From NCBI GenBank assembly GCA_000965745.1, contig CP009479.1, forward strand, positions 1,250,457-1,314,456: 64,000 bases of DNA. The letters run 5' to 3'. Shown here one piece after another: positions 2,638 through 56,883 of this stretch (position 1 is the stretch's first letter; the number at the start of each line of letters is the position of its first letter). The notes below the pieces were generated by a model. That model ran no database searches, was not told the DNA's origin, and saw nothing but the letters and a program-made list of their open reading frames with translations. The stretch comes from an uncultured archaeon (lineage in GTDB: Archaea; Thermoplasmatota; Thermoplasmata; Thermoplasmatales; Thermoplasmataceae). The position numbers were made by a program, and so were the translations under genes.

Positions 2638-3526
2638 CCAGGGTTACACCGTCAGGTATTTCCTCTCTGGAAATTGACACATCATAGTCAGAGAAATTTC
2701 TGGGAATGATATCGAGGCTCTTCTTACTGATATGAACAGTGTCGAACAGTACCTGGGCGGGTGCGTTTCCAAGTTTTGACGAATGTTTGAACACGATGAG
2801 TTTTCTTGTGCTCATCATTCCTCGAGATGCAGAGCGATCGTTTTCGAACATATTCTCCAAGGCTGTCCACAGCAATTCAAGATCATCATCGTTGAACCCA
2901 GTCTGGTTTGCCAGCGGTGCAGACACAAATCCATGGGCCTTATACAATCCATATGGAACTGTGTACTTTCTCCCCATTGTCCTGTTATCCCCATCCTGTT
3001 CCTTGGAATCCTTCTCCGTTGTTACTGCCATTCTTGTAATGCTGTGTTCAAGAGCTACAACCGGATCGACAGATCTCCCGAATGTTAGCTGCACCGGGCC
3101 TCTAACCTGTCCTGCATTAGCCCCTGTGGTCATTACAGCACCAAATGTTCTTATGTCGAAGTAATTGGCACACAGGTATTTTTTGGCCTCTTCACGTTTT
3201 TCAGAGTTCACCTGCTTACTCTTTTCGTTTTCGTTCTTCACAGGCTTGAACTCCACTCCAAGCTTTGAGTATACCAGATCAATAGTTCTGTTAAGAACTG
3301 ATTTTTCCTTTATGAATATGGCATATGGTTCTTTTCCTTCCTTTGCAACTTCCACATAGTTCCGGACTTTTCTCTTGAGGCTGACGTCAGTAACTATTCC
3401 ATGGCCGGTTTCTGCATCCAGTCTCGGAAGGTTGCCTGCATCCGGGTCTCCGTTGGGATTCCCATCCTTTACATCAAACAAAATCACAAAATCATACCTG
3501 TTCTCTATATTGTCTGTCACGTTCAA
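2624..3526 (-). CDS. cas7: Type I-C Cascade backbone protein Cas7 (Csd2)
   Basis: Cas7 polymerises along the crRNA spacer to form the helical backbone of the type I-C effector. The protein has 300 residues, the expected length, and carries the Csd2 N-terminal signature FDVKDGNPNGDPDAGNLPR and the middle motif GAVMTTGANAGQVRGPVQL. Its start overlaps the cas8c stop by 4 bp. Operon position between cas8c and cas4 is canonical for I-C. Confidence 0.97.
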   Translation of the reverse strand: MNVTDNIENRYDFVILFDVKDGNPNGDPDAGNLPRLDAETGHGIVTDVSLKRKVRNYVEVAKEGKEPYAIFIKEKSVLNRTIDLVYSKLGVEFKPVKNENEKSKQVNSEKREEAKKYLCANYFDIRTFGAVMTTGANAGQVRGPVQLTFGRSVDPVVALEHSITRMAVTTEKDSKEQDGDNRTMGRKYTVPYGLYKAHGFVSAPLANQTGFNDDDLELLWTALENMFENDRSASRGMMSTRKLIVFKHSSKLGNAPAQVLFDTVHISKKSLDIIPRNFSDYDVSISREEIPDGVTLVERV

Positions 3527-5301: not shown

Positions 5302-6017
5302 CCTATGACCTGCACTCCCCGTCTATCGGTATTTATAATTCCCTTCTCCATGACCGCCCTGAAGAATAGGGGAGGAGGAGATTCCCGATTCTGCTCAAAA
5401 TTCATGTCGTAAAGCATGAAACCCAGATCCCTGTACTCATTTATGGGTGTAGAAGGATCAACTTCCGGATCTACAAGCCTGAAATAACATGAAAATTCGC
5501 GTGTGCCCAGGTAAGGCCTGTGGAAGCACTGCCCTTTACTTGCTCGCCTTTCAAACATGGCAGCATACTTCTCCTCACTTTCATCGTTTCTCACTGAAGA
5601 CTCGTCTGATTTTGCCTCTGCAGTTTCTGTTGATTTCGTTTGGCCTTCTTCAGGGAGAAAGTCAAAATATCCATGTATACGGTATTTCACATCCTTAAGG
5701 CAGAGGGATGCACGCTGCTGGCGTGCCTCTTCTATATATATACCATCAGGAATACCAACCTCGCCACGTATCTGTCTGGCAGTGGGAGGCGAAATAGTCT
5801 TTCCAACTTCGTTTCTCCTGATCGATACAAATTTTATTGGGTTCAGTACTTCTATCTTCGTTATATTCCATTTAATTGAGGGTTTCCATAGGACAGCTTC
5901 AAATATTGCTCTTGCCGCTGATGGAGTGATCACATCATAGCTCACCCTCTCTACCTTCATCTCAGGTCTTGTGAAACAGGCGTAATCCCCCCAAATCTCA
6001 AGACACCAGTCTTTCAT
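5298..6017 (-). CDS. cas5: Type I-C Cas5c (Cas5d), crRNA-processing subunit
   Basis: In type I-C systems, which lack Cas6, Cas5c cleaves the pre-crRNA at the base of the repeat hairpin and caps the 5' handle. No cas6 is present here, so this protein should do that job. It has 239 residues and the family start with WGDYACFTRPEMKVERVSYD followed by TPSAARAIFEAVLWKP. A stretch rich in Glu, Ser and Thr near residues 125-150 may be a flexible loop. It starts 10 bp after cas3. Confidence 0.96.
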   Translation of the reverse strand: MKDWCLEIWGDYACFTRPEMKVERVSYDVITPSAARAIFEAVLWKPSIKWNITKIEVLNPIKFVSIRRNEVGKTISPPTARQIRGEVGIPDGIYIEEARQQRASLCLKDVKYRIHGYFDFLPEEGQTKSTETAEAKSDESSVRNDESEEKYAAMFERRASKGQCFHRPYLGTREFSCYFRLVDPEVDPSTPINEYRDLGFMLYDMNFEQNRESPPPLFFRAVMEKGIINTDRRGVQVIG

Positions 6018-6027
6018 CGTTCAGCTC

Positions 6028-8316
6028 CTACTGGAGAATATACCTTTCAACATCATATAAAACTTCTTCAACCATCAATCCCAAATTCTCATCATAATCA
6101 AAGCTGGAGGTGAGAGCAAATATACCGGGTTGGACCTCCTCCACTGAACCTTTGGCTAATAACTTCTCGAATTCAGGATTGTATATATTTACGGTATAAC
6201 GTTGAAGTCTTCTTATCAGCTTTCTGTCTGCTCCATTCATTTTCAGCTCTTCTACTAAATCATCACTCTCCCCATATCTGACTATCACGGTTTTTTGAAC
6301 AGAGTCATCTATTATGTGAAACATATTCGAGGCAGTTCTGAAAGAAATTCCAAACTCGGGCCTATCCGGTGAAAGCAAATTCATAATCCCTCTATCATCA
6401 AATGAATTGACTTTCCAGTATAACTCAGAAAAGAAACGATTGAATGCTTCAGGGACCAGGGGATTCTCCTTTATATCGGAAACAAATTCTAAAGTCGTAC
6501 TCTCAGCTTTCCTGAGTATGCCGGCAGGCGGATGCCTTGGGCCATTGAAAACTACAACCTTGCCCGCCTCATTCATAAGGCCTTCTCTATTGCACCTCCC
6601 TGCTGCCTGTGCTATTGAATCCAGTCCAGACATTGCCCTGTAAACAACCGGAAAATCGACATCAACTCCCGCTTCTATCAGTTGCGTACTTATGACCCTG
6701 ACTCGTTCACCCTCCCTTAGCCTATCTTTTATTTCTGCTATTTTCCTGCTCCTATGTTCACCACACATAAGGGCCGAAAGGTGGTAGGTTCCTTCTGGCA
6801 TGAGCCTGTACAATTCCCGGCAACTCTTCCTGTCGGAGACAATGCACAACACCTGTTCGTGAAGTTTCAACTCATATGAAATTTCCTCCCAGGTCTTCTT
6901 TGAATGAAGGTCATCGGGTAAACTGACATCCACTCTCCTGATCTTTTCAAAGATTTCAGAGACTTCTCCACCCATTATTTCAGTGATGCCTTTAAACCCT
7001 GGAAAGAGTCCGTTGGTGGATTCGTGCTCTACCAAAGCAGGCTGGGTTGCAGTTGATAATAGTATAGTTACACCGTAGTGCTCCACAAGAAGTTTTAAAG
7101 TAGCCATTATGGGCCCAAGAAGCTGGATAGGCAATAACTGGGCCTCGTCAAAAATTACAACTGAGTTGACAATATTATGCAACTTTCTGCATTTGCTGGA
7201 TTTGTGGGAGAACAATGATTCGAAAAACTGGACGGATGTGGTAATTACAAACGGGGCATCCCAATTTTCCGTTGCCAGCCTGGCTTTAGGGGTTGTGTCT
7301 TCTTCGGATATGTTTGAGTGATGTTCAATAACGTTGTCATCACCCAGTACTCTGCGGAAAACCCCTGCATTCTGCTCAATTATGCTGGTGAACGGGATTA
7401 CATATATTACGCGGTCCATCTTGTTAATTTCCGCATGATTGAGGGCAAAAGCAAGGCTGGAAAGCGTTTTTCCGCCACCAGTGGGGACTGTAAGTGAGAA
7501 AACCCCGCGGGGCATATTTGCAGCCTCTGCGCAGCGCTGCCTGACACATTTTCTGATACGGTTAACTGCTCTATCCTTTGCGCCAGCCTCAAATTCCTCC
7601 ATGTAGTTGTTGTATTTAACAAGCAAAGCTTCGAGACTGGCGCTCCCGCCTCTAATTTCTGATTTTAAACTATCCATGTATGATTCTGTATCAAGAAAAT
7701 CCGCGTCTACTAAACTGGAAAACAGCATTCTGATCCATAATGACAGATCAAGTTTATTGTCAAAGGCCCACCCGGGTCGTGGAAGTTCTGGCAGATCGAG
7801 GCTGTGGAGCAGATCTTTGTCCAAACCGTCAATAGTAAGCGATTTCTCTAACTGATACTTTAATGAGGAGGCGGCACTGAGTGATGTGGACCAGTCGGGA
7901 AGGCCGGTGTGGTGACCCGCAATGCCGTATGAAATGAGCCTTCCTTCGAATGGGTATTTTTGCTCAGCGTAAACCGCCCCGTATATGGCATGTGGTATTT
8001 TGCCATTCTTACCCTCCAAATGGGCTTCAGGTTCAAATCCACTTTTTGTCCTCAAATAGTTTTGCCACTCGGCGCGACTCTTTCCTAAATCGTGCAATAA
8101 ACCCATGGCCTCAGCCCAAGGCCCAGAGCCAAATTTATCTGCGAAAGTCCCAGCCAGTCTTCCAGTTCCGACTAGGTGTTCTATCAATGGATGCGGACTA
8201 TCCCATAACCCGTCACCTTTCTGATGCACATGTGCTATCAATCTTTCTTTATTAATCCCAGAATCTCCACCAACAAAACTCATCTGAAAGACCCCTGTAG
8301 ACCTGAGTATAGGCAC
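6028..8316 (-). CDS. cas3: CRISPR-associated helicase-nuclease Cas3 (HD plus SF2 helicase)
   Basis: Cas3 is recruited to the Cascade R-loop and degrades the target DNA. The 762-residue protein has an N-terminal HD nuclease domain (His75-Asp76 in MGLLHDLGKSRAEW), then SF2 helicase motifs: Walker A PTGGGKTLSSLAF near residue 280, DEAQ near 390 and STATQPAL. QAAGRCNREG marks motif VI. It is the first gene of the cas operon. A TATA-like TTTAAA at 8340-8345 lies about 25 bases ahead of the ATG at 8316, suggesting a leaderless mRNA. A later Met (residue 12) is an alternative start. Confidence 0.96.
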   Translation of the reverse strand: MPILRSTGVFQMSFVGGDSGINKERLIAHVHQKGDGLWDSPHPLIEHLVGTGRLAGTFADKFGSGPWAEAMGLLHDLGKSRAEWQNYLRTKSGFEPEAHLEGKNGKIPHAIYGAVYAEQKYPFEGRLISYGIAGHHTGLPDWSTSLSAASSLKYQLEKSLTIDGLDKDLLHSLDLPELPRPGWAFDNKLDLSLWIRMLFSSLVDADFLDTESYMDSLKSEIRGGSASLEALLVKYNNYMEEFEAGAKDRAVNRIRKCVRQRCAEAANMPRGVFSLTVPTGGGKTLSSLAFALNHAEINKMDRVIYVIPFTSIIEQNAGVFRRVLGDDNVIEHHSNISEEDTTPKARLATENWDAPFVITTSVQFFESLFSHKSSKCRKLHNIVNSVVIFDEAQLLPIQLLGPIMATLKLLVEHYGVTILLSTATQPALVEHESTNGLFPGFKGITEIMGGEVSEIFEKIRRVDVSLPDDLHSKKTWEEISYELKLHEQVLCIVSDRKSCRELYRLMPEGTYHLSALMCGEHRSRKIAEIKDRLREGERVRVISTQLIEAGVDVDFPVVYRAMSGLDSIAQAAGRCNREGLMNEAGKVVVFNGPRHPPAGILRKAESTTLEFVSDIKENPLVPEAFNRFFSELYWKVNSFDDRGIMNLLSPDRPEFGISFRTASNMFHIIDDSVQKTVIVRYGESDDLVEELKMNGADRKLIRRLQRYTVNIYNPEFEKLLAKGSVEEVQPGIFALTSSFDYDENLGLMVEEVLYDVERYILQ

Positions 8317-9029: not shown

Positions 9030-9089
9030 CTGCAACGTTTATTGGGTTGTGATTAATTTTATTTTGCTTCTCTGCCTACTCTGACATTG

Positions 9090-9332
9090 GTGAAGGATTC
9101 AAAGAAAGGAAAAATAGAGTTCGACCTTTCAGTCGATGTTGATCCTGAAACATGCGAGATGATACGAAAATCGCTCAATCCAGATAACGACCCAAATATA
9201 ACTATGGTATGTTCAGGGGGAAAACTGAGCGTTAATGTAAGAAACCTCAAAATTAGTTCCCTGTACAATATAACGGACGATATTCTAAGATGCTATGAAA
9301 CTTCAAAAAAAATAGTAGATGGAAGGATTTAG
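9090..9332 (+). CDS. pcc1: KEOPS complex subunit Pcc1-like protein
   Basis: Small (80-residue) protein matching the CTAG/Pcc1 family, the dimerising subunit of KEOPS, which makes t6A37 on tRNAs. The characteristic shape is seen: N-terminal beta strand ([10 protein letters not shown]), then [16 protein letters not shown], a beta hairpin and the C-terminal helix [21 protein letters not shown] at 9090 is chosen; a TTG at 9087 precedes it. It is divergent from tRNA-Leu and its end overlaps the convergent tfb gene by 4 bp. Confidence 0.75.
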
Positions 9333-10291
9333 GCTTCCAGTTCCTGTTCCACTTTCAGGTCGAGCTTTTCTGTAAGCTCTTTGTATCTGTTTCTTATGGT
9401 CACTTCAGTAACGCCCGCGACTTCAGCAACAGCGCGCTGTGTCCTTCTCTCTTCTGTGAGAAGTGACGCGATATATATCGCAGCAGCAGCCACCCCTGTA
9501 GGACCTTTTCCAGATGTCAGATCAGAGTCTTCAGCCATCTTCAGGATCTCAGATGCCTTTTTCCTGGCATCCATTGAAAGCTTCAGCTTGCTGCAGAACC
9601 TGTTGACGTAATCTTCAGGCTTTGAAGGCATAATGTTAAGCTTCAGATACCTGCTCATTATCCTGTAGGTTCTACCTATCTCCTTCTTCTTAACTCTTGT
9701 AACAGCAGCGATCTCGTCAAGTGTTCTCGGAACGTTCGTTATTCTGCACGCAGCGTATATTGCACCTGCTACGACTCCCTCGATGCTCCTTCCTCTTATC
9801 ATGTTCTGCTTCACTGCTTTCCTGTAAATTACAGCTGCAGTCTCACGGACATCATTGGGTATGCTAAGGTTGGATGCCATTCTCTCAAGCTCCTGAAGGG
9901 CCTGAGAAAGGTTCCTCTCAGCGGCATTGGATACCTTGATCCTCTTCTGCCATTTCCTAAGCCTGTAAAGCTGGGCTCTGTTTCTGGTCGGGATGGATTT
10001 CCCGTATGAGTCTTTGTTCTTCCATGATATATCTGTCGACAATCCCTTGTCGTGGATTGTGAAAGTCATAGGAGATCCCGCTCTTGCCCTGCTCTCATTC
10101 TGCTCGGAATCGAAAGCTCTCCACTCGGGTCCCTGATCGATATAGCTTTCGTCGATAACTATACCGCAGTTGTTACATATGAGCTCACCTCGCTCATAGT
10201 CTCTTACGAGTTGGGTAGAACTGCATTCTGGGCATCTGGTTATTTCATCAATATTTTCTTTTTTCTTCTTCTCTGTTTCTGTCATACTCAA
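9329..10291 (-). CDS. tfb: Transcription initiation factor TFB (paralogue 1)
   Basis: Archaeal TFIIB homologue that bridges TBP on the TATA/BRE DNA and RNA polymerase. It has 320 residues: zinc ribbon with Cys20, Cys23, Cys39 and Cys42; B-reader region ([14 protein letters not shown]); two cyclin repeats, including [17 protein letters not shown] and [13 protein letters not shown], and a C-terminal HTH ([16 protein letters not shown]). It sits 7 bp after gar1, likely one operon. A second TFB is encoded divergently at 10868-11803. Confidence 0.97.
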
Positions 10292-10298
10292 CCACCAT

Positions 10299-10511
10299 TC
10301 ACCTCGTATACACTTCTTCGACGTCCCTCATAGACGGGGCGTCCAGTTTAACCACACCATAGGGTTCGGCTACAGGTCCAAGAATCCGTACAACTTTCCC
10401 TATCTTCTTTCCGCTTGAGTCATAAACCTTCTCGTACATCTTTAGCATTTCTGGAATTCGCACGAGAATTTCGTTAGTAAATCTATTAACGACGACGCAG
10501 CGGTTCTTCAT
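10299..10511 (-). CDS. gar1: H/ACA RNP component Gar1
   Basis: Gar1 is part of the H/ACA box ribonucleoprotein that pseudouridylates rRNA with Cbf5, Nop10 and L7Ae. The 70-residue protein has the Gar1 beta-barrel signature [20 protein letters not shown], and a length typical of the small archaeal form without GR-rich tails. It is first in a two-gene unit with tfb. A TATA-like ACTTAAATA (plus-strand TATTTAAGT near 10536) lies about 30 bases before the ATG. Confidence 0.9.
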
Positions 10512-18015: not shown

Positions 18016-20393
18016 ATGGAAAAGAAATCAATAGAGGAAGAGATTAAAAAATCCTATCTGGAATACGCCATGAGCGTAATTGTAGGCCGGGCACTGCCAG
18101 ATGTCAGGGACGGGCTAAAACCTGTCCAGAGGAGGATACTTTACGCAATGCATGAACTGGGGTTCACGCATGACAAACCTTACAAGAAGTCAGCAAGGAT
18201 TGTGGGAGAGACAATGGGTAAATACCATCCACATGGGGACACTGCCATATACGACACACTTGTCAGGATGGCCCAGAATTTCTCCTTCAGGTATCCGCTC
18301 ATAGACGGCCAGGGAAATTTTGGGTCTATTGATGGCGACTCCCCTGCTGCCATGAGATACACTGAAGCCAGGATGACACAGCTTTCTGAGGAAATGCTGG
18401 AAGACATCAAGAAGGATACTGTAACATACCACCTGAATTTTGACGGCTCACTCGAGGAACCTGATTTCCTCCCTGGAAAAGTGCCGCAGCTGCTCGTGAA
18501 CGGTGCCTCCGGAATTGCTGTCGGAATGGCAACCAACATGCTCCCACATAACCTCAACGAGGTTTCGGATGCCATTATCCATGAAATAGACAACCCGGGC
18601 GCTTCAGTTGAAGACCTGCTTAATCACGTAAAGGCACCCGATTTTCCGGGGGCTGGTATTGTATTTTATACGCCTGAACTTGTAAATTCATACAAAACCG
18701 GAAGGGGCAAAGCAATCGTTCAGGGTGAAGTGGACCTCAACGAAAGCAGAAATATAATAATAACAAGCCTTCCCTACGGCGTCAACAAGGCACTTTTCAT
18801 AGAAAATGTCGCAAACCAGGCAAAGCAGGAAGTTCTTAAGGGAATCACCGACATCAGGGATGAAAGTGACAGGGACGGGATGAGGGTAGTCATCAAGGTC
18901 AGGGATGACGACATGAAGTCCCTGGTACTGAACCAGCTTTATGAACATACTCAGCTCGAGACTTCAATAGGGATCATAAACCTGGCTCTGGTAAATAATG
19001 AGCCCAAGGTCCTGACGCTCAAGTCGATGGTGGAAATCTTCATAGACCATCGGCTCGAAATGATTCTGAAGAGATCGGAATACGATCTCGGGAAGCTCAA
19101 GCAGAGGGAGCATATCCTTCTCGGACTGAAAATTGCCCTCGACAACCTGGACGACGTGATCGCATTAATAAAGGGCTCCAAAGACACTCCTGCCGCCAGA
19201 AAAGGTCTCATGGAGAGATTCGAGCTCACAGAGGAGCAGTCAAATGCAATTCTTGAGATGAGGCTCCAGAGAATAACAGCCCTGGAGACTGAAAAGGTTC
19301 TGAAGGAGCTACAGGAGGTCAGAAAGGATATATCCAGGCTGGAGAAGATAGTCGAGAGCGACAGGGAGAGAAGAAAGATCCTCAAGAAAGAGCTCGAGTA
19401 CCTGAAGAAAAAATACGGAGACGCAAGAAGGACAAAAATATCATTCAGGGAGATCAAGGACAGATCGGTGGAGGACCTTATCCCTAAGGAAGAGGCACTG
19501 GTCGTCCTGAGTGAAGGTGGCCTTCTCAAGAGGCTTTCCCCGGAAGAATACAGGGCTCAGAGAAGGGGCGGAAAAGGAATAATCACTTCAAGCAGAAAAG
19601 AGGATTTCACAAAGACTGTAATAGCCTGCCCACCCATGATTCCGTTTATTTCTTCACCAACACTGGAAGGGTTCTAAAGACGAAAGCTTACGAGATACCA
19701 AAGAAAACAAGGAAAACAGTTGGAACAGTTGCAGAAGCCATAATACCTTTGATGGAGAGCGAAAAAGTAACACAGGTAATGAAGGCCCCTGAAAAGAAGG
19801 GGGAACACCTTATAATGCTCACAAAGAACGGTTTTATAAAGAAGACTCCCGCAAAGCACCTCTTTGAAATGAGGGTGTCCGGCCTAAAGATCATCACTCT
19901 TGGCGAGGACGACGAGCTTATTGCCGTTGAGCACACCGAGAAACCCGCAAAGATGTTCGTCGTTTCCAGCGCCGGCAAAGCATCACTGTTTGATACAAAC
20001 GAAGTGAGGAGCACCGGCAGGACTTCCAGGGGCGTGAAGGCAATAAGGCTCAAGAACCACGACTACACAATTTCCGGTTTCCTGGTCACACTGGAGTCCA
20101 GTGTCCTGAGCGTTTCAGAGAAAGGCATCGGGAAGAGAACAAAGGCAAAGGAGTTCCCAATGCACCATAGGGGAACCACCGGAGTCTATGTTTTCAAGGA
20201 AAGCACAAGGACAGGCCGCCTTGTCAAGGCACTTCCGGTGAGTGAAGAGGATGAAATTCTCATAGTTTCGAGGCTGGAAAAGACAATAAGGCTCAGGGTG
20301 AGCGACATAAGGGAGCAGTCCCGCCTCACTTCGGGAGTAATATTGATTGACCTTTCAGAGGGAGACAGCGTCATAGCGGCAACTGTCCTCTGA
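18016..20393 (+). CDS. gyrA: DNA gyrase subunit A, frame broken by one missing base
   Basis: DNA-cleaving subunit of gyrase. The first frame (to 19677) gives the cleavage domain with catalytic Tyr115 in [20 protein letters not shown], and a GyrA box QRRGGKG. It then shifts at the C run 19629-19631: adding one C restores [20 protein letters not shown] and continues to the stop at 20393, giving about 792 residues with the beta-pinwheel C-terminal domain. Both parts are well conserved and gyrase should be essential, so a sequence error is the simplest explanation. A true mutation is not excluded. Confidence 0.92.
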
Positions 20394-25947: not shown

Positions 25948-27426
25948 CTAATCCGTCGTCTCTGATGTATTTGTGAACAGGAAAGCATTCACCGGAATTT
26001 TGTTCCTGGTAAACCTGTCAGCATTAAGTGAGATGTTGGTGCTGAGCCACATAACCGGCAGGGTGAATCCCCAGAGGAGGAGGCTGAACTGAAGCTGCTG
26101 CCCCATCCCGAATTCCGGCCATATAACGGTAAGCCCTATGGCGCTAATGTAGAATACCACTATCGCCAGCATGCTGAACATCATCGTGATGAATTCAAGA
26201 TAAAGCATCCTGACCTCATTTTCATTGCCTTTGAATACCATCCCGGAAAGGATTCCGGAAGCCACAGAAACTACTCCCATCACCGAGAATACGAGGGAAC
26301 TGTTGACAGTGGGCAGTGTTATCTGCGGAACATACCATATGAACATGCCTATGGATGATAGCGCCACAAGGAGATAGGTGAGCACGACGGGCATTTTCCT
26401 TTTCACAGGCAGGACCCGGTTTACAAGATACACAACAAATATGCCGTAAACAAACATCAATATATTGACGCTGGAAAATACGGCCAGATTACTCTGCAGC
26501 GACAGGTAAACGACATAGGTGCTGTATACGGGTACGGCAATCAGTGATATTATCATGGAAAACATGAACCAGCCGCTTTCGGTAACCTTCCATATTGAAT
26601 CAAGAAGCCTGACCCTCTTGCCCTTGAGGTAGAACTTGATCAGCAGGATATCGGTCAGAAGAAGGAACACAATGCTCTCACTTATAAGCGGTATTATCGC
26701 AGTGAACAGAATTGCAGCTATTGCGGAAGGGAAGGAGGCGGTTATGCCTTCACACTGGCAGCTGAGAACAGTAACTGCATTGCTGACCGTCTTCCTGACG
26801 CTACCAGAGCCCTTGAAGCTCAGGAGCTTGAAAATCAGGTAGTAATTTTCAGTAAGCACCACGGAGAGCACAGTGAAAAGGGTTACAATGGGAACACTTA
26901 CAGAGAGTATGAAGTACCGGGAATAGAAGACTATTCCATCCGTGAACATCAGGGGAACTCCGCCGGGAAGGACATCATCATATATGGATCCAAAGGCCAT
27001 TGCGTAACTCGGTGGACCTGTATCCATTCTCAGGGAACTCCCGAGAATGAACATCGCAAATATCACGCCTATGAACGCAGCAAGCTTGGAAACTGTCCTC
27101 CTGCTGAAACCCACGGTTCTGGAAAAGTATGCAAGTGATGAAATCAAGGATACTGCTGAAAAGGGAAGTAGTGAGAAATAGGGGATTGTTGCAACAAAAA
27201 GCAGGGAATACACGGTGATCAGGACTCCGATTATGTAAATCTCAGCCTCCCTGTACACGGTAAGGAAAATTGAGGCAACTGTAAGCAGAGCAATTATGAT
27301 CGGAGGAACATACATCTGGGAAGCGAGTATTGGGTCAACGTAAACGAGCCCAAGTTTAATCCCGAAGAAGAAAAGCATCAGGTATGAAGCGAGGGATACG
27401 ACAGCATAGAACAAGGAGCTCTTCAT
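25948..27426 (-). CDS. Polytopic membrane protein with LSCQCE motif (paralogue A)
   Basis: A 492-residue integral membrane protein with about 13 hydrophobic segments; I do not know its function. It is a paralogue of the protein at 40280-41761: both share LTENY, then AVTxLSCQCE (here Cys223 and Cys225) followed by a hydrophobic helix, and near the C terminus LEFITMM, VVFYIS and IWPEFG. Cys-Gln-Cys inside or at the edge of a membrane helix suggests metal or thiol chemistry. It stands alone here, convergent with the glucoamylase and divergent from cyclophilin. Confidence 0.85.
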   Translation of the reverse strand: MKSSLFYAVVSLASYLMLFFFGIKLGLVYVDPILASQMYVPPIIIALLTVASIFLTVYREAEIYIIGVLITVYSLLFVATIPYFSLLPFSAVSLISSLAYFSRTVGFSRRTVSKLAAFIGVIFAMFILGSSLRMDTGPPSYAMAFGSIYDDVLPGGVPLMFTDGIVFYSRYFILSVSVPIVTLFTVLSVVLTENYYLIFKLLSFKGSGSVRKTVSNAVTVLSCQCEGITASFPSAIAAILFTAIIPLISESIVFLLLTDILLIKFYLKGKRVRLLDSIWKVTESGWFMFSMIISLIAVPVYSTYVVYLSLQSNLAVFSSVNILMFVYGIFVVYLVNRVLPVKRKMPVVLTYLLVALSSIGMFIWYVPQITLPTVNSSLVFSVMGVVSVASGILSGMVFKGNENEVRMLYLEFITMMFSMLAIVVFYISAIGLTVIWPEFGMGQQLQFSLLLWGFTLPVMWLSTNISLNADRFTRNKIPVNAFLFTNTSETTD

Positions 27427-31540: not shown

Positions 31541-33997
31541 ATGGACATTCATGGAAGTGGATCTGGATATTCCAACCCCAGTGAAGCAAGGCCTGAGTCC
31601 TGGGTAAGAGACTGGCTGTTTACAACAGACCATAAGAAAATAGGAATATGGTACTTTGCCACAGCATTTTTCTTCTTTCTGCTTGCAGGCTCAATAGCTC
31701 TTATGATCAGGACTCAGCTCATCCTGCCAAACATGCATTTTCTGGATGCGGCCCAGTACAGTGAGGCCTTCAGCCTCCATGGTTTCACGATGATGTTATT
31801 CTTCCTGACTCCATGGAACTTTGCGTTTGGCAACTATTTTGTTCCGCTTCAGGTTGGAACCAAAAGGCTTGCTTTTCCGAAGCTGGAGTCTCTCGCATAC
31901 TGGCTGTATCTGCTGGGAGGCATTCTCCTTTTCACTGGACTGTACTACCCGGGAGGAGCTTTGAATCTTGGCTGGACACTGTACGCGCCGTTGAATCAAG
32001 ACGTATTCTTCCCGAATGTAGGTGACACAATTGCACTGTTTGCCCTGATGATGGAGCTCGTAAGCCTGATCATTGCGGCCCTGAACTTCATAGTTACAAT
32101 AGTTGGAAGAAGGGCCAAAGGAATGAGGATGGTAGAGGTGCCCCTGTTCACATGGGCCATACTGTTTGTTAGTGTGCTTCTATGGTTCTCGGCACCCGAG
32201 CTTCTGGGGCTTGACACTACGCTTATTCTTGATCGTGTATTCCATTTCAGCACTCTGCTCTCTCCAGCAGGAGGGGCTCTGCTGTGGGAACTTGAATGGT
32301 GGTATTTCGGCCATCCCGAAGTTTACGTACTGGTCTTACCTGCTGCGGGTGCGATAGCTGATATGACCAGTACTTTTGCCAAACGGCCTGTATGGGGCAA
32401 GAAGATGGTGATAGGAGCCTTCGGGTTTGTGCTCTTCATGAGCATACTTGTCTTCTTCCATCACATGTTTATGACCGGCATCCTCATGCCAATGCTTCAG
32501 AACGCTTCCGTCTGGACCGAGACCATCTCGATACCGGTGGGAGTTATCTGGCTGGCCATAGTGGGAACAGTTGTGGGAGGCAAGATCAACGCCAAGAACC
32601 CCGCCATGCTATTCATAATCGGGGCAGGAATCAATGTCCTTGTCGGAGGAACTTCGGGGGAGCTCCTGTCAGCCATTGGAATGGACGTCGGGGTTCACGG
32701 GACATTCTTCGTAGTTGGCCACTTCCACTATTTTGTTGTTGGCCTTGGAGTATTTGGGCTCATTGCAGCAACCTACTACTGGTTCCCAAAGATGACAGGG
32801 TTCATGCTGAACAGAAAACTGGGGGTGATTCATTTCATCATATCCTATATCGGCATCAACCTGCTTTACGGCCCGATGTTCTTCCTTTACAACATGCCCA
32901 GAAGGTGGGCATTATACCCGCCCGGGCTTGGATTTACGACACCAAACTTCATGGCCTCAATTGGAGCCTACATATTCGGAGGGGCACAGGTTATACTCCT
33001 GGTGAATATGATCTACACCCTTTACAGACAGGGGCCAAAAGCCCCGGACAACCCATGGGGCGGATACCAGCCGGAGTGGCTCACCACATCCCCGCCACCA
33101 GAACACAACTTTGACGGCCTGATGAACGTAAAGCACACAAAGGAAGCCATCAAGATTACGTTCGAGCCTCTGAAGAAGATCTACAAGCCTGAACTCTCAC
33201 CATATCCACTGATTATCTCCGTGGGCGCGTTCATATTCTTCACGGGAGTTGCACTCTACGTGATGTATTATCCGCCGATAGTCTGGATGGTTGGAGCTGC
33301 CATAGTGGCATACGGATTCATAGGCTGGATGTACCAGTCTGCCAGGCTTAGAGACTACCTTGGCGAAGATGTGCATGAGAGGAACATGAAAGGGTTCTCA
33401 GGAATAAATCTGACAGACTTCGGAATGTTCGGGTTTATAACAGGATTTGTCCTGTTCTTCAGTTCCTTCCTGGGAACAGGCGTATTCGGCTACCTGCAGA
33501 CAAAGGCGTTCTCCATACTGGGCGCTTTCCCGTTTTCGAACGACCCGCCACTTGCCTTGGGTTCAATAATGCCTCACTATCAGATGGCGGCTGCCACTAT
33601 CCTGGCAATCGTTTCGACGGTGGGATTGGGAGTTGCCTATGAAGGAGCAAAGTTGAGAAAATACACGGCAATAAATTCGGGCCTCGGGGCAGCTGCTGTG
33701 ATGATCATAGCTGTTGTTGTGATGTATCTTTCCAGTTTTGCCATAATGGGAACGGACGGATACGGCTTCGCAGCAGCGCACAACAGCATGCTTCTGTCAA
33801 CGTTCTATGACAACTTCATACCTCTGACCGCATTCTTTGTGGCTTCGGCAGCAGTTGCCATTTACATGATGATGAACGCTCTGAGGAAGAAGATCACGAT
33901 GACTCCGAGAATAACGAGCATGAGGGCATTGCTGATCTTCAACACCTTCACAACAGCATTTGCAGTGATCGCGTACATTGTAGTTGGGGCGCTATAA
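31541..33997 (+). CDS. Heme-copper terminal oxidase, subunit I/III fusion
   Basis: Catalytic subunit reducing oxygen to water. The first 520 residues are subunit I: low-spin heme ligands His80 and His396, high-spin heme ligand His394 (VGHFHYF), CuB ligands His258, His307 and His308, and the His-Tyr pair plus Glu260 in FGHPEVY. Residues about 560-818 form a subunit III-like domain with seven hydrophobic segments. GHPEVY places it with A-type oxidases, yet canonical proton-channel residues differ (see findings). Followed by the ribosome site AAGGAGGTGATC of the next gene. Confidence 0.95.
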   Translation: MDIHGSGSGYSNPSEARPESWVRDWLFTTDHKKIGIWYFATAFFFFLLAGSIALMIRTQLILPNMHFLDAAQYSEAFSLHGFTMMLFFLTPWNFAFGNYFVPLQVGTKRLAFPKLESLAYWLYLLGGILLFTGLYYPGGALNLGWTLYAPLNQDVFFPNVGDTIALFALMMELVSLIIAALNFIVTIVGRRAKGMRMVEVPLFTWAILFVSVLLWFSAPELLGLDTTLILDRVFHFSTLLSPAGGALLWELEWWYFGHPEVYVLVLPAAGAIADMTSTFAKRPVWGKKMVIGAFGFVLFMSILVFFHHMFMTGILMPMLQNASVWTETISIPVGVIWLAIVGTVVGGKINAKNPAMLFIIGAGINVLVGGTSGELLSAIGMDVGVHGTFFVVGHFHYFVVGLGVFGLIAATYYWFPKMTGFMLNRKLGVIHFIISYIGINLLYGPMFFLYNMPRRWALYPPGLGFTTPNFMASIGAYIFGGAQVILLVNMIYTLYRQGPKAPDNPWGGYQPEWLTTSPPPEHNFDGLMNVKHTKEAIKITFEPLKKIYKPELSPYPLIISVGAFIFFTGVALYVMYYPPIVWMVGAAIVAYGFIGWMYQSARLRDYLGEDVHERNMKGFSGINLTDFGMFGFITGFVLFFSSFLGTGVFGYLQTKAFSILGAFPFSNDPPLALGSIMPHYQMAAATILAIVSTVGLGVAYEGAKLRKYTAINSGLGAAAVMIIAVVVMYLSSFAIMGTDGYGFAAAHNSMLLSTFYDNFIPLTAFFVASAAVAIYMMMNALRKKITMTPRITSMRALLIFNTFTTAFAVIAYIVVGAL

Positions 33998-35895: not shown

Positions 35896-35932
35896 AATGA
35901 CCGTCTCAGAAATTAACTATTTTTATTTTTTT

Positions 35933-37234
35933 GGTTCTTCCTAGTTTTGTGTGGGCTCATGGATAAAGCTCCAGATTTCCGCATTTGAAATATATTGCTG
36001 TCTTGAGATGGCCTCTGTTCCTGAATCCATACGCCATCTTCTCTATCAGCGCGATCTTTGAATTGATTCCCTCTGCCTTTGCGTTTGTTATCCTGTGGAT
36101 GAAATAGTTCAGTATCTTGTCGATGTGCATTCGCATCATCTTCGCCACCTTCTTCATTGCATCAATCGAGGAGTGCACGATCCAGGAGTGCCATCTCTTC
36201 CAGTAATCCATTGCATCCTCCATTGAGGGGAGATTCCACAGGTTCCTTATGTTCTCCTTCATGGAGTACGCCTTGCCCGTCCTTAGATCTGAATTCCTTA
36301 GCTCATTGTACCGCTCCCTGTACCTTTCGGGAAGGCGATCGCCGGAATAGAGCCATATGTACCTTGATCCTTTGAGGTCCATGATACCCTTCTTCACCAG
36401 TTCACGATTCTCCTCCTTCCTCACCGCATCAACCGCTTCATTCACATGGCGCATGACATGAAACCTGTCGAAGACGATCTTTGAATGAGCCTGTGGTACA
36501 TGCTCAAGCGTGGATGATATGTACGGATCCCACATGTCCATTGATACCGCATCTATGCGAGATAATTCATCATCACTCATCGTTTTGTAATACTCATCGA
36601 GTGATGATTTCCTCCTGTCCATGGAGATGAACTCAACACCGCTGTTCTCCATGTCCATCACCAGCGTGATGTACTTGTGCCCCTTCCTGTACGATTTGTC
36701 ATCAACGCCTATGATCCTTGGCCTTGATGTTTTCCTTGACAGTCCTCTCTTAACCGCATGATCGATGATGTTCCATGCCCGGCTCCAGGAAATGTCCATT
36801 ACCCGGGTGAAATTCTCAACATCCATGTTCTGGAGCATCCTTATGGATCTTGATTCGAATCTGAGAGTGAACCTTGATCTCTTCTCGGAGAGGGGCATGA
36901 CCGCCTCTCTTATGCCATGCTCCGGACACTGTATCCTTGGTGATCTGGCATGAATGAATGTCTTGAACCCTATGCTGTCAAGATCCCTCCAGACCCTTTC
37001 CCTCAGATGATCGTAGACCATGCACTCCCTCCTGCACTCGGGACATGGGAGCTTAGCTCCCCTGTCGTGTGCTATGAAGACTTCAACAACCTTGTCATTT
37101 GAATCAAGTGAAACACTCTCAACCCTCCAGGGGTTCTTGAGCCCTAAGAGCTCGGAGTACAACTGTTCAGCATCCTGCATGGCAAATATAATGAAAAGAA
37201 GGATAAAAATACCCACACATTTCTAGGATGAACC
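35933..37234 (-). mobile_element. Complete ISL3-type insertion sequence with 8-bp target duplication
   Basis: A 1302-bp element. The ends are imperfect 23-bp inverted repeats: GGTTCTTCCTAG (left, 35933) and GGTTCATCCTAG (right, on the minus strand), both continuing to TGTGTGGG with three mismatches between. They are flanked by identical 8-bp ATTTTTTT at 35925-35932 and 37235-37242, the target duplication expected for ISL3. It holds one intact transposase on the minus strand. It sits between the CuA subunit gene and the heme O synthase gene, right at the latter's start. Confidence 0.93.
35957..37180 (-). CDS. ISL3 family transposase
   Basis: 407 residues and intact. The N-terminal zinc-binding region (LPCPECRRECMVYDH and IQCPEHGIREAV) is followed by an HTH. 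The DDE-type catalytic domain includes IIGVDDKSYRKGHKY, DAVSMDMWDPYISS, and a C-terminal IHRITNAKAEGINSKIALIE with the conserved Glu. All are ISL3 marks. Start is ATG 37180; the frame extends 12 codons further upstream without a family match. The element looks recently active. Confidence 0.93.
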   Translation of the reverse strand: MQDAEQLYSELLGLKNPWRVESVSLDSNDKVVEVFIAHDRGAKLPCPECRRECMVYDHLRERVWRDLDSIGFKTFIHARSPRIQCPEHGIREAVMPLSEKRSRFTLRFESRSIRMLQNMDVENFTRVMDISWSRAWNIIDHAVKRGLSRKTSRPRIIGVDDKSYRKGHKYITLVMDMENSGVEFISMDRRKSSLDEYYKTMSDDELSRIDAVSMDMWDPYISSTLEHVPQAHSKIVFDRFHVMRHVNEAVDAVRKEENRELVKKGIMDLKGSRYIWLYSGDRLPERYRERYNELRNSDLRTGKAYSMKENIRNLWNLPSMEDAMDYWKRWHSWIVHSSIDAMKKVAKMMRMHIDKILNYFIHRITNAKAEGINSKIALIEKMAYGFRNRGHLKTAIYFKCGNLELYP

Positions 37235-37247
37235 ATTTTTTTGAAAG

Positions 37248-38999
37248 GTGATAAGAATCTTCAGTGAACAGCCCAACAGCAGAAGCTACCCGATGCGAAG
37301 CAACGCTTCAGGGAAACAGGGACTGAAATTTGTAGCCGTCGGCATACTGTTCTCACTCGCGCTCATGTCATACTGGTACTTTGTCCAGGACGGCGTGGCG
37401 TTCATGCAGCCAGGAAAGGTTGAAAGGCTGATGATTCTCTTCTACATTATTTTGTCATCTTCTATTTTCATGGTCGTCCACGGCTTGAGAAAATTCTACC
37501 GCCAATATATTGAAGAAACGGCTGAAGTCCAGAAAATCGTCAGGTTTCTCACAGTATTGTACAGCATATTCTATCTCTATTTCTCCGGGATCGTAGCGTG
37601 GCAGCCGAAAATTGACTTCACAAGAGTATACGGGGTCACACACGCAACTATTATCGGCTTCCCGGCGTCCGGTTCATTCGGCCAATATCCCTCTGTAAAC
37701 ATTTTCGCCCCTCCATCCTGGCATCTGGGGGCGGAGGTGCTTCCCCTTGATCTCATTCTGATGTCGGTGATTATTCCCATGGTGGCGCTCAATTTCGGGA
37801 TAATCCTGACAACACTGCGCAGGCACAGGCGCATGAGCAACGCACCACTAAACAGCACAGGTGTCGCCGCAACCATATTCACTTCGTGTCCCACCTGCGC
37901 GGTGAGTGCGATAGCTTTTGGTGTCAGTGGCATAGGGGCCGCCTCATGGTATGCAACGCTCGCGTCATACCAGTACCTCTTTGTGGCCATAGTTGTCCCC
38001 CTGCTTCTGGCTCTGCCCTTCATCAATGAACCAGCATTGAAAGGTGTATGTAAAATGACTAGTTTAAGTGATAAAGGTGTTAAAAGACCGTTTCTGTCAC
38101 CTGGTTATGAAGATAAGAAAATCAGGAGCGGCGTTTCAGCAAAGGATTATATCAGCCTGATGAAGCCGGGTATATCATTCCTGCTCATAGTGGAGGCTGT
38201 ATCATCCTATCTAATAGCAGATTCTCTTGCAGTGGGGATTGTGACCCTGCTGTCGCTGATAGCTGCGGGCTTCCTCTCTTCTGGAGGGTCAGCTGCCATC
38301 AATAACTTTCTGGAGAAAGACAGGGATTCCCGGATGGAAAGAACATCTCGGAGGCCGGTCGCATCAGAAAGGATCTCACCAGGGAAGGCTCTGGTATTCG
38401 GCATTCTGTCCATATCATTTTCCCTGGCTATTTCCGCGATATTGATCAACCTGTTTACAGCAGTTATGATCTCCTTTGGGGCAATCTCATACATATTCCT
38501 CTACACTCTGTTTCTCAAACCCAGGACCGAGATGAACATCGTAATTGGAGGGATAGCGGGAGTCTTTCCAGCCCTGGCGGGTTGGTCAGCGGCAACAGGG
38601 TCTATCGGACCACTCGCATTTCTCATAGGGGCAATAGTTTTTCTCTGGACTCCACCACACTTCTGGGGGCTCGCGACAAAATACAGGGATGACTACAGGC
38701 TTGCAGGTTATCCTATGCTCCCAGTGAGCAGGGACATAAAAGGAACCGTGAGGGCAATAACAATCTGGTCTGTTCCGATGCTTGTTGCGCCATTTGTTCC
38801 ACTGATAATTCCCCAGATAGGCACTCTTGGCATTATGTATTATGGGGCTGCAGCAGTGGTTACAGCCATATTTGTCAAGATCGATGTGGACATGCTCAGG
38901 GAGCCGACGGAGAAGAACGCTTTCAGGGCGTTTACCTTTTCCATACCGTACCTGTTTGTGATACTCCTGGCAATGATCGCGGGAACAATCACACTTTAG
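37248..38999 (+). CDS. ctaB: Heme O synthase (CtaB) fused to an N-terminal membrane domain with SCPTC motif
   Basis: The C-terminal 285 residues are a UbiA-type protoheme IX farnesyltransferase: INNFLEKDRDSRMERTSRRP at 351-370 and TPPHFWGLATKYRDDYRLAG. It makes heme O for the neighbouring oxidase. The first 270 residues form an additional membrane domain of about six helices. It bears Cys214 and Cys217 in TSCPTCAVSAIAF; I recognise no family for it. Total 583 residues is about twice a normal CtaB. Start could be GTG 37248 or ATG 37293. The ISL3 element ends just 13 bp upstream of the GTG. Confidence 0.9.
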   Translation: MIRIFSEQPNSRSYPMRSNASGKQGLKFVAVGILFSLALMSYWYFVQDGVAFMQPGKVERLMILFYIILSSSIFMVVHGLRKFYRQYIEETAEVQKIVRFLTVLYSIFYLYFSGIVAWQPKIDFTRVYGVTHATIIGFPASGSFGQYPSVNIFAPPSWHLGAEVLPLDLILMSVIIPMVALNFGIILTTLRRHRRMSNAPLNSTGVAATIFTSCPTCAVSAIAFGVSGIGAASWYATLASYQYLFVAIVVPLLLALPFINEPALKGVCKMTSLSDKGVKRPFLSPGYEDKKIRSGVSAKDYISLMKPGISFLLIVEAVSSYLIADSLAVGIVTLLSLIAAGFLSSGGSAAINNFLEKDRDSRMERTSRRPVASERISPGKALVFGILSISFSLAISAILINLFTAVMISFGAISYIFLYTLFLKPRTEMNIVIGGIAGVFPALAGWSAATGSIGPLAFLIGAIVFLWTPPHFWGLATKYRDDYRLAGYPMLPVSRDIKGTVRAITIWSVPMLVAPFVPLIIPQIGTLGIMYYGAAAVVTAIFVKIDVDMLREPTEKNAFRAFTFSIPYLFVILLAMIAGTITL

Positions 39000-39008
39000 T
39001 GATCTGAA

Positions 39009-39794
39009 ATGTTAGTGTATTCACTTTCCATTGCAGAAGCAATATTCGCGGGCTCCATCATAGTCATAGGAGGGATGGTTGAGGGAACCGGAAAAGGCCT
39101 CTCTCTGGGTACAAAATGGCCTTATACCAGGAACATGCCGGGGCTTGCACTGAAGCTGGATTCAGAGGTCTGGCACAGAGTCGTTGCCACTATTCTGGGA
39201 TTGAATGCGGTGGCAATACTGATACTTGGAAGGGGGGAACTTGAGATAGTGGGATTTCTCCTTGTTGCAGCTACGGCCCTCCTTGGGCTTGGGACCCTGT
39301 ACACACAGGCAGGAAAAGCCCCGTCACTTATTCAGGGGACTCATGACATTCTTGCTTACCTGACCCTGTTGACATATCTCCTGCTTGCTGTAAGCGACCC
39401 TGTCAACTTCGGCTCATTCCTCCTGCATGCCATCCCGCTTCATTCATTCCTTCTGGTCGCATTCATGGGGGGTGTAACTGCAGGCCAGAGAGGTTTTGGA
39501 AAAGCAATAGGGCAGTTTGTGGTTCCGAAGACATTTGCACAATGGGCATGGGTTGTTCATATGCTTTCTGTCCTGATCTTTATCCTGACGCTGGCGTATT
39601 TCTTCCCGAACTATGACGTGGCCTTTATCCTGACACTTGTCCAGATGGGGGTTGGTCTTTTTTCATACCAGTCGGTCAACAAAAACCCAAAGAGGCCTGG
39701 AATGCTCATACCGACACATCAGCTTTTCTCTGTGCTGATAGTGGTATCTATATTCTTCGGCTTGTCTATAAACGTACCATTTCTTATGAAATAA
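39009..39794 (+). CDS. ctaA: Heme A synthase-like protein (CtaA/COX15)
   Basis: Membrane protein of 261 residues and about seven or eight helices. It fits CtaA by the Glu-x2-His motif EVWHRVVATILGL, a second His in GTHDILAYLTLL, and later His residues in WVVHMLSVL and IPTHQLFSVL that would bind heme. CtaA oxidises heme O to heme A, which matches the gene order directly after heme O synthase and the A-type oxidase upstream. Sequence is divergent, so the call rests on both motifs and context. Confidence 0.75.
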   Translation: MLVYSLSIAEAIFAGSIIVIGGMVEGTGKGLSLGTKWPYTRNMPGLALKLDSEVWHRVVATILGLNAVAILILGRGELEIVGFLLVAATALLGLGTLYTQAGKAPSLIQGTHDILAYLTLLTYLLLAVSDPVNFGSFLLHAIPLHSFLLVAFMGGVTAGQRGFGKAIGQFVVPKTFAQWAWVVHMLSVLIFILTLAYFFPNYDVAFILTLVQMGVGLFSYQSVNKNPKRPGMLIPTHQLFSVLIVVSIFFGLSINVPFLMK

Positions 39795-40279: not shown

Positions 40280-41761
40280 ATGGCCGCAAGAAACATCCTG
40301 GCAGGAGGAATATCATCTTTCTTCATACTCCTGTATATGGTGGTAGTGCTTAACGTCGGTTATGTCTACATCGATCAGTTTGCACGCCAGGAAGTCATCA
40401 TGGCATTCATCGTTGCCATGGCTCTCCCTGTACTTGCAATGATCCCGTCCAGAAGGCTTGGGAAGGCTCAATTTTACCTGGAGCTTGTAGTGCTCCTGTA
40501 CACATACGGAATGGCAATGCTGGCGATACAGAAGCCCGTTCTTCTGTTCATCGCATTGGTCCCGTTTATAATCAACCTGCTTCTCTTCCAGTCAAGGTTT
40601 CTCACGACGGGCAGGCAGAAGTACAAAGCGGTCACATTTGTTGCACTCCTCGTTTTTATGTACTTCGTATCAAGCGTTATCAAGGTTGAAATTCCCGGTG
40701 TCAGGGGATACGAATTTGCCATTGCCCTTTATGACGACAACATCTCGCCACAGGGAATACAGTTCATAATGACAGGGGCCATAACCCTTTTCACAAAGCT
40801 GTTTGTAATCGATCTGAGTGTCGGGGATTTTCTCCTTTTCATCACCATATCTGCAATTCTCACTGAAAACTACAGCATGATATTCACTTATCTGAAGAGC
40901 AGGAACAAGGGAATGGTGAACACCACGCTTTCAGGCGCGGTGACTGCACTCAGCTGCCAGTGTGAAAGCCTTGCCGCGGCCTTTCCAACAGTGATAGTGC
41001 TCCTCCTGTCCGTGATAATAGTGCCACTCATGGTTGAAACTGTCGGCAGCATCATACTTACGTCATTCCTTCTCTCGAGGCTGTATCTTAGAGGGAGAGG
41101 CTGGGGATTCGTACACCGCGTGGAAGAATGGTCAAGGGGAAACGGATTTCTCAAGGTGATGATCCTCCCTTACCTTGTCGTGCCGCTGTTCGAGACGTTT
41201 GGGATCTTCCTGGGTTTTCTGAACATATTCATGTTCTTTGCCGGAATAAATTTCCTGATGTTCTTCACAGGTATTTCAATCCCGGTTGTAATCAAAAGAG
41301 TTGTGGGGTTCAGGGGATTCAGCAGCCGTCTGCCCCTGATAGGCCTTACCGCTCTTTCCGCTTTTCTAATGTACGTATGGTTCTTGCCTTCTCTGACCCT
41401 TGTTGCATACACTTCTCCCGCCTATTTTGCAGTGATGAACCTCTCCGCTGTCGCCTCTGGATTTCTTTCGGGTGTTGCATATGCATCCACCCGCAGCCAT
41501 GAAAACAGGAGGCTTCTGCTCGAGTTCATCACGATGATGGAGAGCATGTTTGCAATAATTGTGTTCTATATTTCTGTGGTAGGCAGGTATACAATATGGC
41601 CCGAGTTCGGCCTTCTCCAGGCCACCGAATTTGCAATTGCAATGTTTGGAGTGACTCTCCCATTCATGTGGATGAGCACCCACATGACCCTATCGGATTA
41701 TGCTGTTGATGATACTCCCACGAAGGTTAGAAGTGGAAGAAACGACGCCGTAAAGGCCTGA
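40280..41761 (+). CDS. Polytopic membrane protein with LSCQCE motif (paralogue B)
   Basis: 493 residues, about 13 hydrophobic segments, function unknown. It shares with the protein at 25948-27426: LTENY, AVTALSCQCE (Cys226, Cys228, Glu229), LEFITMM, IVFYIS and IWPEFG, and the same length. This copy closes the cytochrome oxidase and heme synthesis block, so a role in metal delivery, heme handling or assembly of the oxidase is plausible. That role is inference from context and from the Cys pair only. Confidence 0.85.
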   Translation: MAARNILAGGISSFFILLYMVVVLNVGYVYIDQFARQEVIMAFIVAMALPVLAMIPSRRLGKAQFYLELVVLLYTYGMAMLAIQKPVLLFIALVPFIINLLLFQSRFLTTGRQKYKAVTFVALLVFMYFVSSVIKVEIPGVRGYEFAIALYDDNISPQGIQFIMTGAITLFTKLFVIDLSVGDFLLFITISAILTENYSMIFTYLKSRNKGMVNTTLSGAVTALSCQCESLAAAFPTVIVLLLSVIIVPLMVETVGSIILTSFLLSRLYLRGRGWGFVHRVEEWSRGNGFLKVMILPYLVVPLFETFGIFLGFLNIFMFFAGINFLMFFTGISIPVVIKRVVGFRGFSSRLPLIGLTALSAFLMYVWFLPSLTLVAYTSPAYFAVMNLSAVASGFLSGVAYASTRSHENRRLLLEFITMMESMFAIIVFYISVVGRYTIWPEFGLLQATEFAIAMFGVTLPFMWMSTHMTLSDYAVDDTPTKVRSGRNDAVKA

Positions 41762-49954: not shown

Positions 49955-51258
49955 ATGCTCGAAGGGTTGCAGGACGGTCTCTACCGGAGGGCTAAGGAAA
50001 ACAAGGATGCTAGATTCAACACGCTCCATGACAAGATATACAGAATGGACGTGCTGCAAGAGGCATGGAGACTGGTATGGGAAAACAGGGGATCGGAAGG
50101 TGTAGACAACCAGACGCTTGATGACATAAGAGAAGAAGGGATAGAACAACTGCTTGAACAGATACAGCATGAACTCAAAACAGGCACCTACAGGGCATCA
50201 TGTGTCAGGAGGGTATTCATCCCGAAATCAAGCGGAAAACTCAGGCCGCTCGGTATACCAACAGTCAAGGATCGCATAGTGCAGCAGGCAGTTAAGTTGA
50301 TCATTGAGCCCATATTCGAAGCAGATTTCTTGGAATTCAGCTACGGATACAGGCCAAACAGATCGGCAAAAGACGCCTCTCTAGAAATATACAAGTGGCT
50401 CAACTACGGTCTCACCAACATAGTAGACGTCGATATAGAAGGCTTCTTCGACCACATAGATCATGAGCTTCTCCTCAAATTCGTGAAGGAAAGGGTCACG
50501 GACGGATACATACTTTCACTCATAAAACAGTGGCTCAAGGCGGGCATAGTATACGGAAAATCTGTGACAAATCCAACGGAAGGCACGCCTCAGGGGGTGT
50601 CATTTCTCCGTTGATTGCAAACACATATCTCAACAAGCTTGACCACGCATGGGCTGAGATGAACATGGACAGCAATACAGGGCACAATGCGCACCTGATC
50701 AGATACGCGGATGATATTCTGGTGTTGACAGACGATGCACGCTCCTTCACCTTCAGTGGAAAGAATCACGCAAGGAACGTCATGAAGATCCTCTGGATGC
50801 TCGTAGGGAAGCTGAAGCTCAAATTGAGTGAAAGCAAATCCCGTATAACAACCGCAGAGGAAGGTTTTGATTTCCTTGGGTTCCACTTCCTCAGGAGGTA
50901 CTGGGAGAGATACGGAAAATGTGTATCCAGATTCTTCCCGTCGAAGAAATCTGAACTTAATTACAAGGCAAAGGTGAGTGAGATCACATCAAGACGACAC
51001 GCGCACACAAAGAGCGAGGATGACGTAATCAGGGAATTGGACCAGCTCACAATAGGCTGGACAAACTACTATAACCACAGCCATGCATCGGAAACGTACG
51101 CAAAGCTCTGGAATTTCCTCTGCTGGAGACTAACGCAGTTCATCAGGTACAGGCACAAGCGCCGTAGCCTCGCTGTGGATTACGTCAGGCTGCGATCCTA
51201 TGGCCTCATGCCCCCATACGGAAGAATAAGGCATAATTATACCGTGTGCCCACGGTGA
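49955..51258 (+). pseudogene. ltrA: Group II intron reverse transcriptase/maturase, one-base frameshift
   Basis: Start ATG at 49955 after AGGAGGTCATAGC. The first frame gives RT motifs (IPKSSGKLRPLGIPTVKDR, VDVDIEGFFDHIDHELLL) and breaks at the G run 50593-50597. One extra G restores GTPQGGVISPLIANTYLNKL, then RYADDILVL (catalytic Asp pair), GFDFLGFHFL and the maturase end IGWTNYYNHSHASETYAKLW. With that base the protein is about 434 residues and complete; without it, it is broken at the start of RT motif 4. Sequence error or a dead intron. Confidence 0.9.
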
Positions 51259-55926: not shown

Positions 55927-56883
55927 CGAACACGAACAAGGTCGAGAACCGGTTGCCCAAGAGACAACAGGGCAGCGAGAAGAGTAGCTTCACTGACGAG
56001 GCACATCGACGTGCTGAATCCAAAACAGGGAGAGGTCAACACATACTTCCAGAAGAGGATAAGAGACACATCACTTTCAAAGACCACGATCATAGCTGAA
56101 GTGAATGATCTCAGACTGTTCTGGAATGGATACCTTGAGCTAGGAATAAAGCTCCTTCCGTTAAAGACACCTCCAGAGAAGGACGTATGGATACCAACTG
56201 ACCAGGAGGTTATCAGGATAATGAAGGCAGCGGAGCATTCAAGCGCTGACAAGGGAATAGCGCTCAGGAATTCACTGATCACCAGGATGTTCTTCCTCGG
56301 CTGCATGAGAGTTGGGGAAATGATGAGGATCCGCTTAAACGACGTAGATTTTGAGTTGGGCGGTGTCAATATCAGGTCAGAAAAGGGTGAAGCTGATCGT
56401 TTTGTCGGTTTCCATCCGGACATCTTGAAAGACCTGAAAACTTAATTGAATGTTTACAGACCCCGCACTACATTCACTCAGCTCTGGATCGCGACGAAAA
56501 AGGGAAAAACCCAGAGTTCTGTGGAGCCTATCACCTACGCTGGGCTTCGGAAGCTATCCAAGGTCATGGGGCTTTCCGCAGGCGTGACCCAATTCCATTG
56601 GCATGCTGCGAGGCACTGGGGCGCAACAGCCTATCTATATGGGCGTCTGGGAGTACCACCGTTGGGAATCAGATCGGTTCAAAAACTTCTCGGTCATGTG
56701 TCATTAAAGACGACTCAGAGGTATACTCACGTCACAGACAGGGACGTTGCAAAAGAGGTGATATCCGCGCAAAGAAAATTATTTCGCGGGCATGAAAAAA
56801 ATGAGGGATTAAGGGGCGTGAAAGCCCCTATACCGAACCCTATGGGGCTGACCGGGTTTGAACCGATGACCACCTGGTTATGA
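55927..56883 (+). pseudogene. Tyrosine recombinase (integrase) of the element, N-terminally cut and with in-frame TAA
   Basis: XerA-like integrase. The open frame runs from 55927 with a core-binding part (LNPKQGEVNTYFQKRI), catalytic Arg in GCMRVGEMMRI, a Lys hairpin (NIRSEKGEADRFVGF), then TAA at 56443-56445. The same frame goes on with HAARHWGATAYL (His-x2-Arg), LLGHVSLKTTQRYTHVT (His and Tyr nucleophile). Its last codons run through the attachment core into the tRNA gene and stop at 56883. The N terminus seems lost to the IS1634-type insertion; GTG 56011 could start a short product. Confidence 0.85.
56842..56857. repeat. attR, right copy of the 16-bp attachment core
   Basis: ATGGGGCTGACCGGGT, identical to 48225-48240. 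It covers the last 15 nucleotides of the tRNA gene (minus strand) plus one base and is also read as codons by the integrase frame (MGLTG). Confidence 0.85.

Follow-up and report, generated by a model that had tools for sequence, protein, structure and literature searches.

A predicted membrane domain with an invariant Cys-Pro-x-Cys site, joined in frame to heme O synthase in the deposited oxidase operon of a Thermoplasmataceae archaeon

The analysed window, a stretch of 64,000 nucleotides from an uncultured archaeon of the Thermoplasmataceae, contains an oxidase operon whose order along the plus strand is CoxA, a small protein, sulfocyanin, CoxB, (an ISL3 element), the fusion gene, a CtaA-like gene and an LSCQCE gene. 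The following features are discussed here, with coordinates given as positions in the window:

25948..27426 (-): second LSCQCE paralogue
31541..33997 (+): CoxA, oxidase subunit I, 818 aa
34233..34964 (+): sulfocyanin-like copper protein, PF06525
34966..35895 (+): CoxB, oxidase subunit II
35933..37234 (-): insertion element of the ISL3 type, separating coxB from the fusion gene; transposase at 35957-37216
37248..38999 (+): CPxC-family domain joined in frame to CtaB, 583 aa
37248..38054 (+): CPxC-family domain at the N-terminus, with six predicted TM helices (from homologues and topology)
37887..37898 (+): codons of Cys-Pro-Thr-Cys (residues 214-217) in predicted TM5, C-P-x-C invariant in the family
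38039..38046 (+): internal Shine-Dalgarno-like GAAAGGTG, 8 nt before ATG 38055
38047..38060 (+): fusion junction, GTATGTAAAATGAC
38127..38981 (+): residues 294-578, heme O synthase (CtaB) domain by profile match
39009..39794 (+): CtaA-like protein (heme A synthase type) lacking Cys pairs; begins 10 nt downstream of the fusion gene
40280..41761 (+): membrane protein of the LSCQCE type, remotely homologous to the N-terminal domain by profile comparison

The C-terminal part of CoxA is probably subunit III. The ISL3 element is flanked by an 8-bp target duplication, ATTTTTTT (35925-35932 and 37235-37242), and has three further near-identical copies in the genome. In the CtaA-like protein a GGxVxGxGxGL...HR motif was recognized by eye, and a weak match (E 2e-5) links it to a CtaA-like protein in entry L135. 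Sco (PF02630) and Caa3_CtaG (PF09678) were not found by profile in this genome. Apart from the operon, a set of genes resembling type I-C CRISPR-Cas (Cas1, Cas4, Cas7, Cas8c, Cas5, Cas3) was noticed by eye at 896-8316.

The fusion ORF starts with GTG 37248, ends with its stop at 38999 and comprises 583 codons, stop-free inside; ATG 37293 is an alternative start. Its C-terminal half is a full member of the CtaB/CyoE/Cox10 family (TIGR01473) above the curated cut-off, matching over residues 299-577 with 277.4 bits against a cut-off of 210.3 (E 1.7e-82). UbiA PF01040 matches residues 317-563, and the Asp-rich prenyl-diphosphate motif (NNFLEKDRDSRMERT / NNFLEKDRDSRMERTSRRP) and TPPHFWGLA (PPHFW) are intact. 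Whereas such proteins are normally free and ~290 aa long, here a 270-residue membrane domain is added in front. As deposited, the ORF with a complete CtaB after an extra domain is therefore real, and the earlier description of this extra domain as having roughly six helices agrees with hydropathy. A second full-score ctaB is located at genome position 1370712 (genome of 2.23 Mb, one contig). In the tree, the CtaB half of the fusion sits on a long branch that falls outside the clades of both families, for which an origin from another lineage was considered, and a search of the class with this half slightly favoured other families.

In regard to the N-terminal domain, residues 1-270 matched no Pfam or NCBIfam family, COX15/CtaA included, and the fusion ORF gave no match to the Sco or Caa3_CtaG profiles. 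Hydropathy places helices at residues 22-48, 56-83, 97-120, 157-193, ~204-230 and ~234-268, the fifth of which holds Cys 214 and 217 of TSCPTCAVSAIAF (residues 212-224). The AlphaFold2 model of the domain (pLDDT 76) agrees with six helices and shows helix 5 broken at the motif. A PDB fold search with this domain and with LSCQCE returned no match at E <= 1e-3, and comparison of sequence profiles with the PDB gave nothing credible. The basic loops and both termini of the domain are predicted to lie inside. CtaB, as a protein of the UbiA superfamily, has a cytoplasmic N-terminus, and since the C-terminus of the domain is likewise predicted to face the cytoplasm, topology allows the join.

Homologues of the domain were not found by single-sequence search in 60 relatives at E <= 1e-3. 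The same type of search in the phylum recovered stand-alone proteins of ~280 aa from another family of the class (E 3e-5 and weaker), which align over the second half of the domain and carry N/T-C-P-x-C-G, while phmmer matched entry L130 (motif S-C-P-T-C-A) with an E of 1.9e-9. Profile search added L131-L136, with C-P-A-C-A, and four stand-alone proteins of ~250 aa from the window's own family (L271, L272, L274, L275), with V-C-P-A-C-A. Free homologues of ~250-290 aa, which the earlier note had suggested looking for, are thus present in three families of the class, the window's own and two others. In the 17-row alignment A5 the only invariant positions are two Pro and C-P-x-C (17/17), so the Cys pair is conserved. 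The A5 rows include the window, and its own profile scores are therefore not independent; the single-sequence matches to other proteins, by contrast, are independent, as they were obtained without the window in the model. In the outer loop the f7 members and L130 carry a CCG motif, which is not family-wide, because the window has ASG there and CCG is also missing from the f66 members located by coxB and from the window's own family. As a profile, the multi-family alignment A1 proved too diverse, and a narrower alignment matched eight Thermoplasmata MAGs; the GTDB contig scan with the N-terminal domain alone gave none. The extra domain belongs to an unnamed archaeal family of membrane proteins of ~250-290 aa, with six helices and an invariant C-P-x-C. 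Next to CPxC genes, L122 has a divergently oriented gene for a Cys-rich membrane protein (9067-10302; GACCCTSCLTT, Gly-rich helix), and in L125 a gene for a 542-aa protein (6291-7919) overlaps the start of the CPxC gene, with a similar one in L127.

Just as the fusion gene lies within an oxidase operon, several of its CPxC relatives adjoin oxidase, copper or heme genes, as the earlier note had led one to ask. In f66 (L131-L136), CPxC genes precede CoxB-CoxA, with CoxB, and mostly also CoxA, in five genomes; in L136 the oxidase genes are outside the fetched stretch. CoxB and cupredoxins lie beside the CPxC gene in L124, Cu P-type ATPase/YHS genes adjoin it in L129 and L130, and in L120 its neighbours are radical-SAM TIGR04053, protoporphyrinogen oxidase (hemY) and ferrochelatase (hemH). 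No adjacent oxidase, copper or heme gene was found in L125, L127, L128, L276 and L278, nor, within the window's family, for the homologues g9 and g18.

The resemblance of the Cys motif to the LSCQCE site, remarked on earlier, is upheld, because profile comparison gives remote homology: hhalign of CPxC against LSCQCE yielded E 1.7e-4 (A2) and 2.3e-6 (A5), while unrelated controls gave at least 0.017. The alignment spans ~119 columns and brings the Cys sites within a few columns of each other; the CPxC domain is remotely homologous to the two LSCQCE proteins of the window. The two share a Cys site at a nearly equal place and ctaB as a neighbour, but the LSCQCE family of Thermoplasmatales has ~490 aa and C-Q-C-E where the N-terminal domain has C-P-x-C, so the latter is a remote homologue and not a member. 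In relatives, the LSCQCE gene comes directly after ctaB, often overlapping it (L024, L025, L026, L028, L029, L031, L035, L142, L143, L147, L148; some of these entries are the same genome). Coupling of a CPxC-like protein to ctaB is therefore recurrent, and in the window it takes the form of a fusion. One LSCQCE member is weakly like DUF1404. In L145 and L146 a Rieske protein and a cytochrome b-like gene precede the LSCQCE genes, a position reminiscent of the CbsB/SoxN clusters of Sulfolobales, and in L146 the LSCQCE gene also adjoins a Cu P-type ATPase.

The fusion itself did not turn out to be conserved in Thermoplasmatales, which the earlier note had raised: it was found in this genome, the only one of its genus in the sample, and in no other sampled genome. 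In the sister genera with the same oxidase (L138-L141), the order CoxA, (a small protein), sulfocyanin, CoxB continues with a free CtaB of ~288 aa that lacks the extra domain. GC-rich relatives with a long-frame CtaB (e.g., L192) were considered as fusions and rejected, as their N-terminal parts are low-complexity, GC-rich and unmatched by the CPxC profile. Fusions of CtaA with CtaB (HAS-HOS) have been described in bacteria and archaea (PMC8239418, PMC12808453) and provide a precedent for coupling, as a membrane assembly protein is fused to CtaB there too. However, their partner is CtaA, while the window ORF has the CPxC domain as partner and a separate CtaA-like gene at 39009. No fusion of CtaB to a CPxC domain came up in the papers searched, which represent a small fraction of the literature.

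Whether one chain or two products are formed depends on the junction, as the fusion rests on the deposited sequence of a single junction, 38047-38060. Cys268 (TGT), near the end point of the stand-alone members, is followed by AAA and ATG 38055, and the GAAAGGTG 8-mer preceding this ATG also occurs at 37243-37250. It could therefore be argued that there is no fused protein, and that overlapping genes give two proteins, either because of a one-base sequencing or assembly error or by bypass via ATG 38055. The perfect Shine-Dalgarno sequence and ATG at the junction favour this, with a P of about 1% for an internal ATG: AGGTG is found upstream of 1.0% of internal ATGs versus 8.2% of ORF starts (400 kb of genome). 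So does the effect of a single A inserted or deleted ahead of ATG 38055: the N-terminal ORF then stops immediately (with GVCKND* or GVCK*, near the ends of stand-alone members), and CtaB keeps its own ATG. The free CtaB of the sister genera points the same way, as do two frameshifts in the window. One splits gyrA at 19620-19680 into ORFs 18016-19677 and 19749-20393, by one base at a C run (CCC), while gyrA is intact in relatives; whether this shift is real or a sequencing error, it affects how far the assembly can be trusted. The other lies at a G run (PQGGV motif) in a group II intron-type reverse transcriptase (49955-51258), the sole copy in 400 kb of genome. The audit of conserved genes, in contrast, covered about 151 kb of this genome and found a single frameshift there (108 kb of G008 had none, 171 kb of G010 one weak case), so an error exactly at the junction is unlikely a priori, and as deposited a ribosome starting at the 5′ end yields the fusion. 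On balance, we lean towards the fused chain truly being made, with two separate products as a serious but somewhat less probable outcome. A tyrosine recombinase at 56011-56883 is likewise present as two ORFs, in one frame and split by a stop codon.

According to the explanation that we prefer, with a probability of roughly 0.45, the CPxC/CQC archaeal polytopic membrane proteins help to build the heme-copper oxidase, and here one of them is joined to ctaB. A stand-alone CPxC gene would have come between coxB and ctaB in this lineage, and would then have been joined in frame to ctaB. The Pro-kinked Cys pair in its helix may bind Cu(I) or relay thiol electrons while the CtaB half makes heme O, and metal and heme would thereby reach subunit I together; CtaB alone is probably also made from ATG 38055. 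The copper or redox control by the fusion, as proposed earlier, would be plausible. Some CPxC homologues without an oxidase, copper or heme neighbour, the single fused genome, the lack of the outer-loop CCG in the window, the gyrA indel in the assembly and the absence of a matching solved fold all count against this explanation.

It could alternatively be that the domain is a thiol-disulfide carrier, CcdA-like in role, that keeps metal-site residues of CoxB or sulfocyanin ready for copper. An invariant C-P-x-C in a kinked helix and the proximity of coxB in several genomes would suit such a carrier, but no similarity to CcdA, DsbB or VKOR was found in sequence or fold, the C-x-C of LSCQCE is unusual for a disulfide relay, and the Cu ATPase neighbours point to copper, making it rather improbable. 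We judge equally doubtful that the domain handles heme rather than copper, passing heme B to CtaB or heme O from it. Although the fusion to CtaB, the ctaB-LSCQCE gene pairs and the hemH/hemY/radical-SAM cluster at L120 speak for heme, the invariant residues are Cys and Pro, there is no conserved His pair, and copper ATPases stand beside L129 and L130.

Related to the preferred role in oxidase assembly, Sco and Caa3_CtaG would be comparable in their possible role, the Cys- or membrane-based supply of copper to the oxidase, but neither is similar in sequence to the CPxC domain, and this genome has neither. A broader proposal, which we regard as speculative and unlikely, is that CPxC and LSCQCE belong to a single, so far unrecognised superfamily of archaeal proteins with an intramembrane Cys site. 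Where Sco and CtaG are missing, these proteins would load copper (or pass heme) into heme-copper oxidases, and CPxC-CtaB would act as a single-chain machine in which the handling of copper is coupled to the synthesis of heme O. For the delivery of copper to the oxidases of acidophilic archaea that lack Sco or CtaG, the fusion marks the conserved but unnamed CPxC family, with its invariant Cys site, as a candidate, and the members of this family represent a concrete list of genes for deletion tests.
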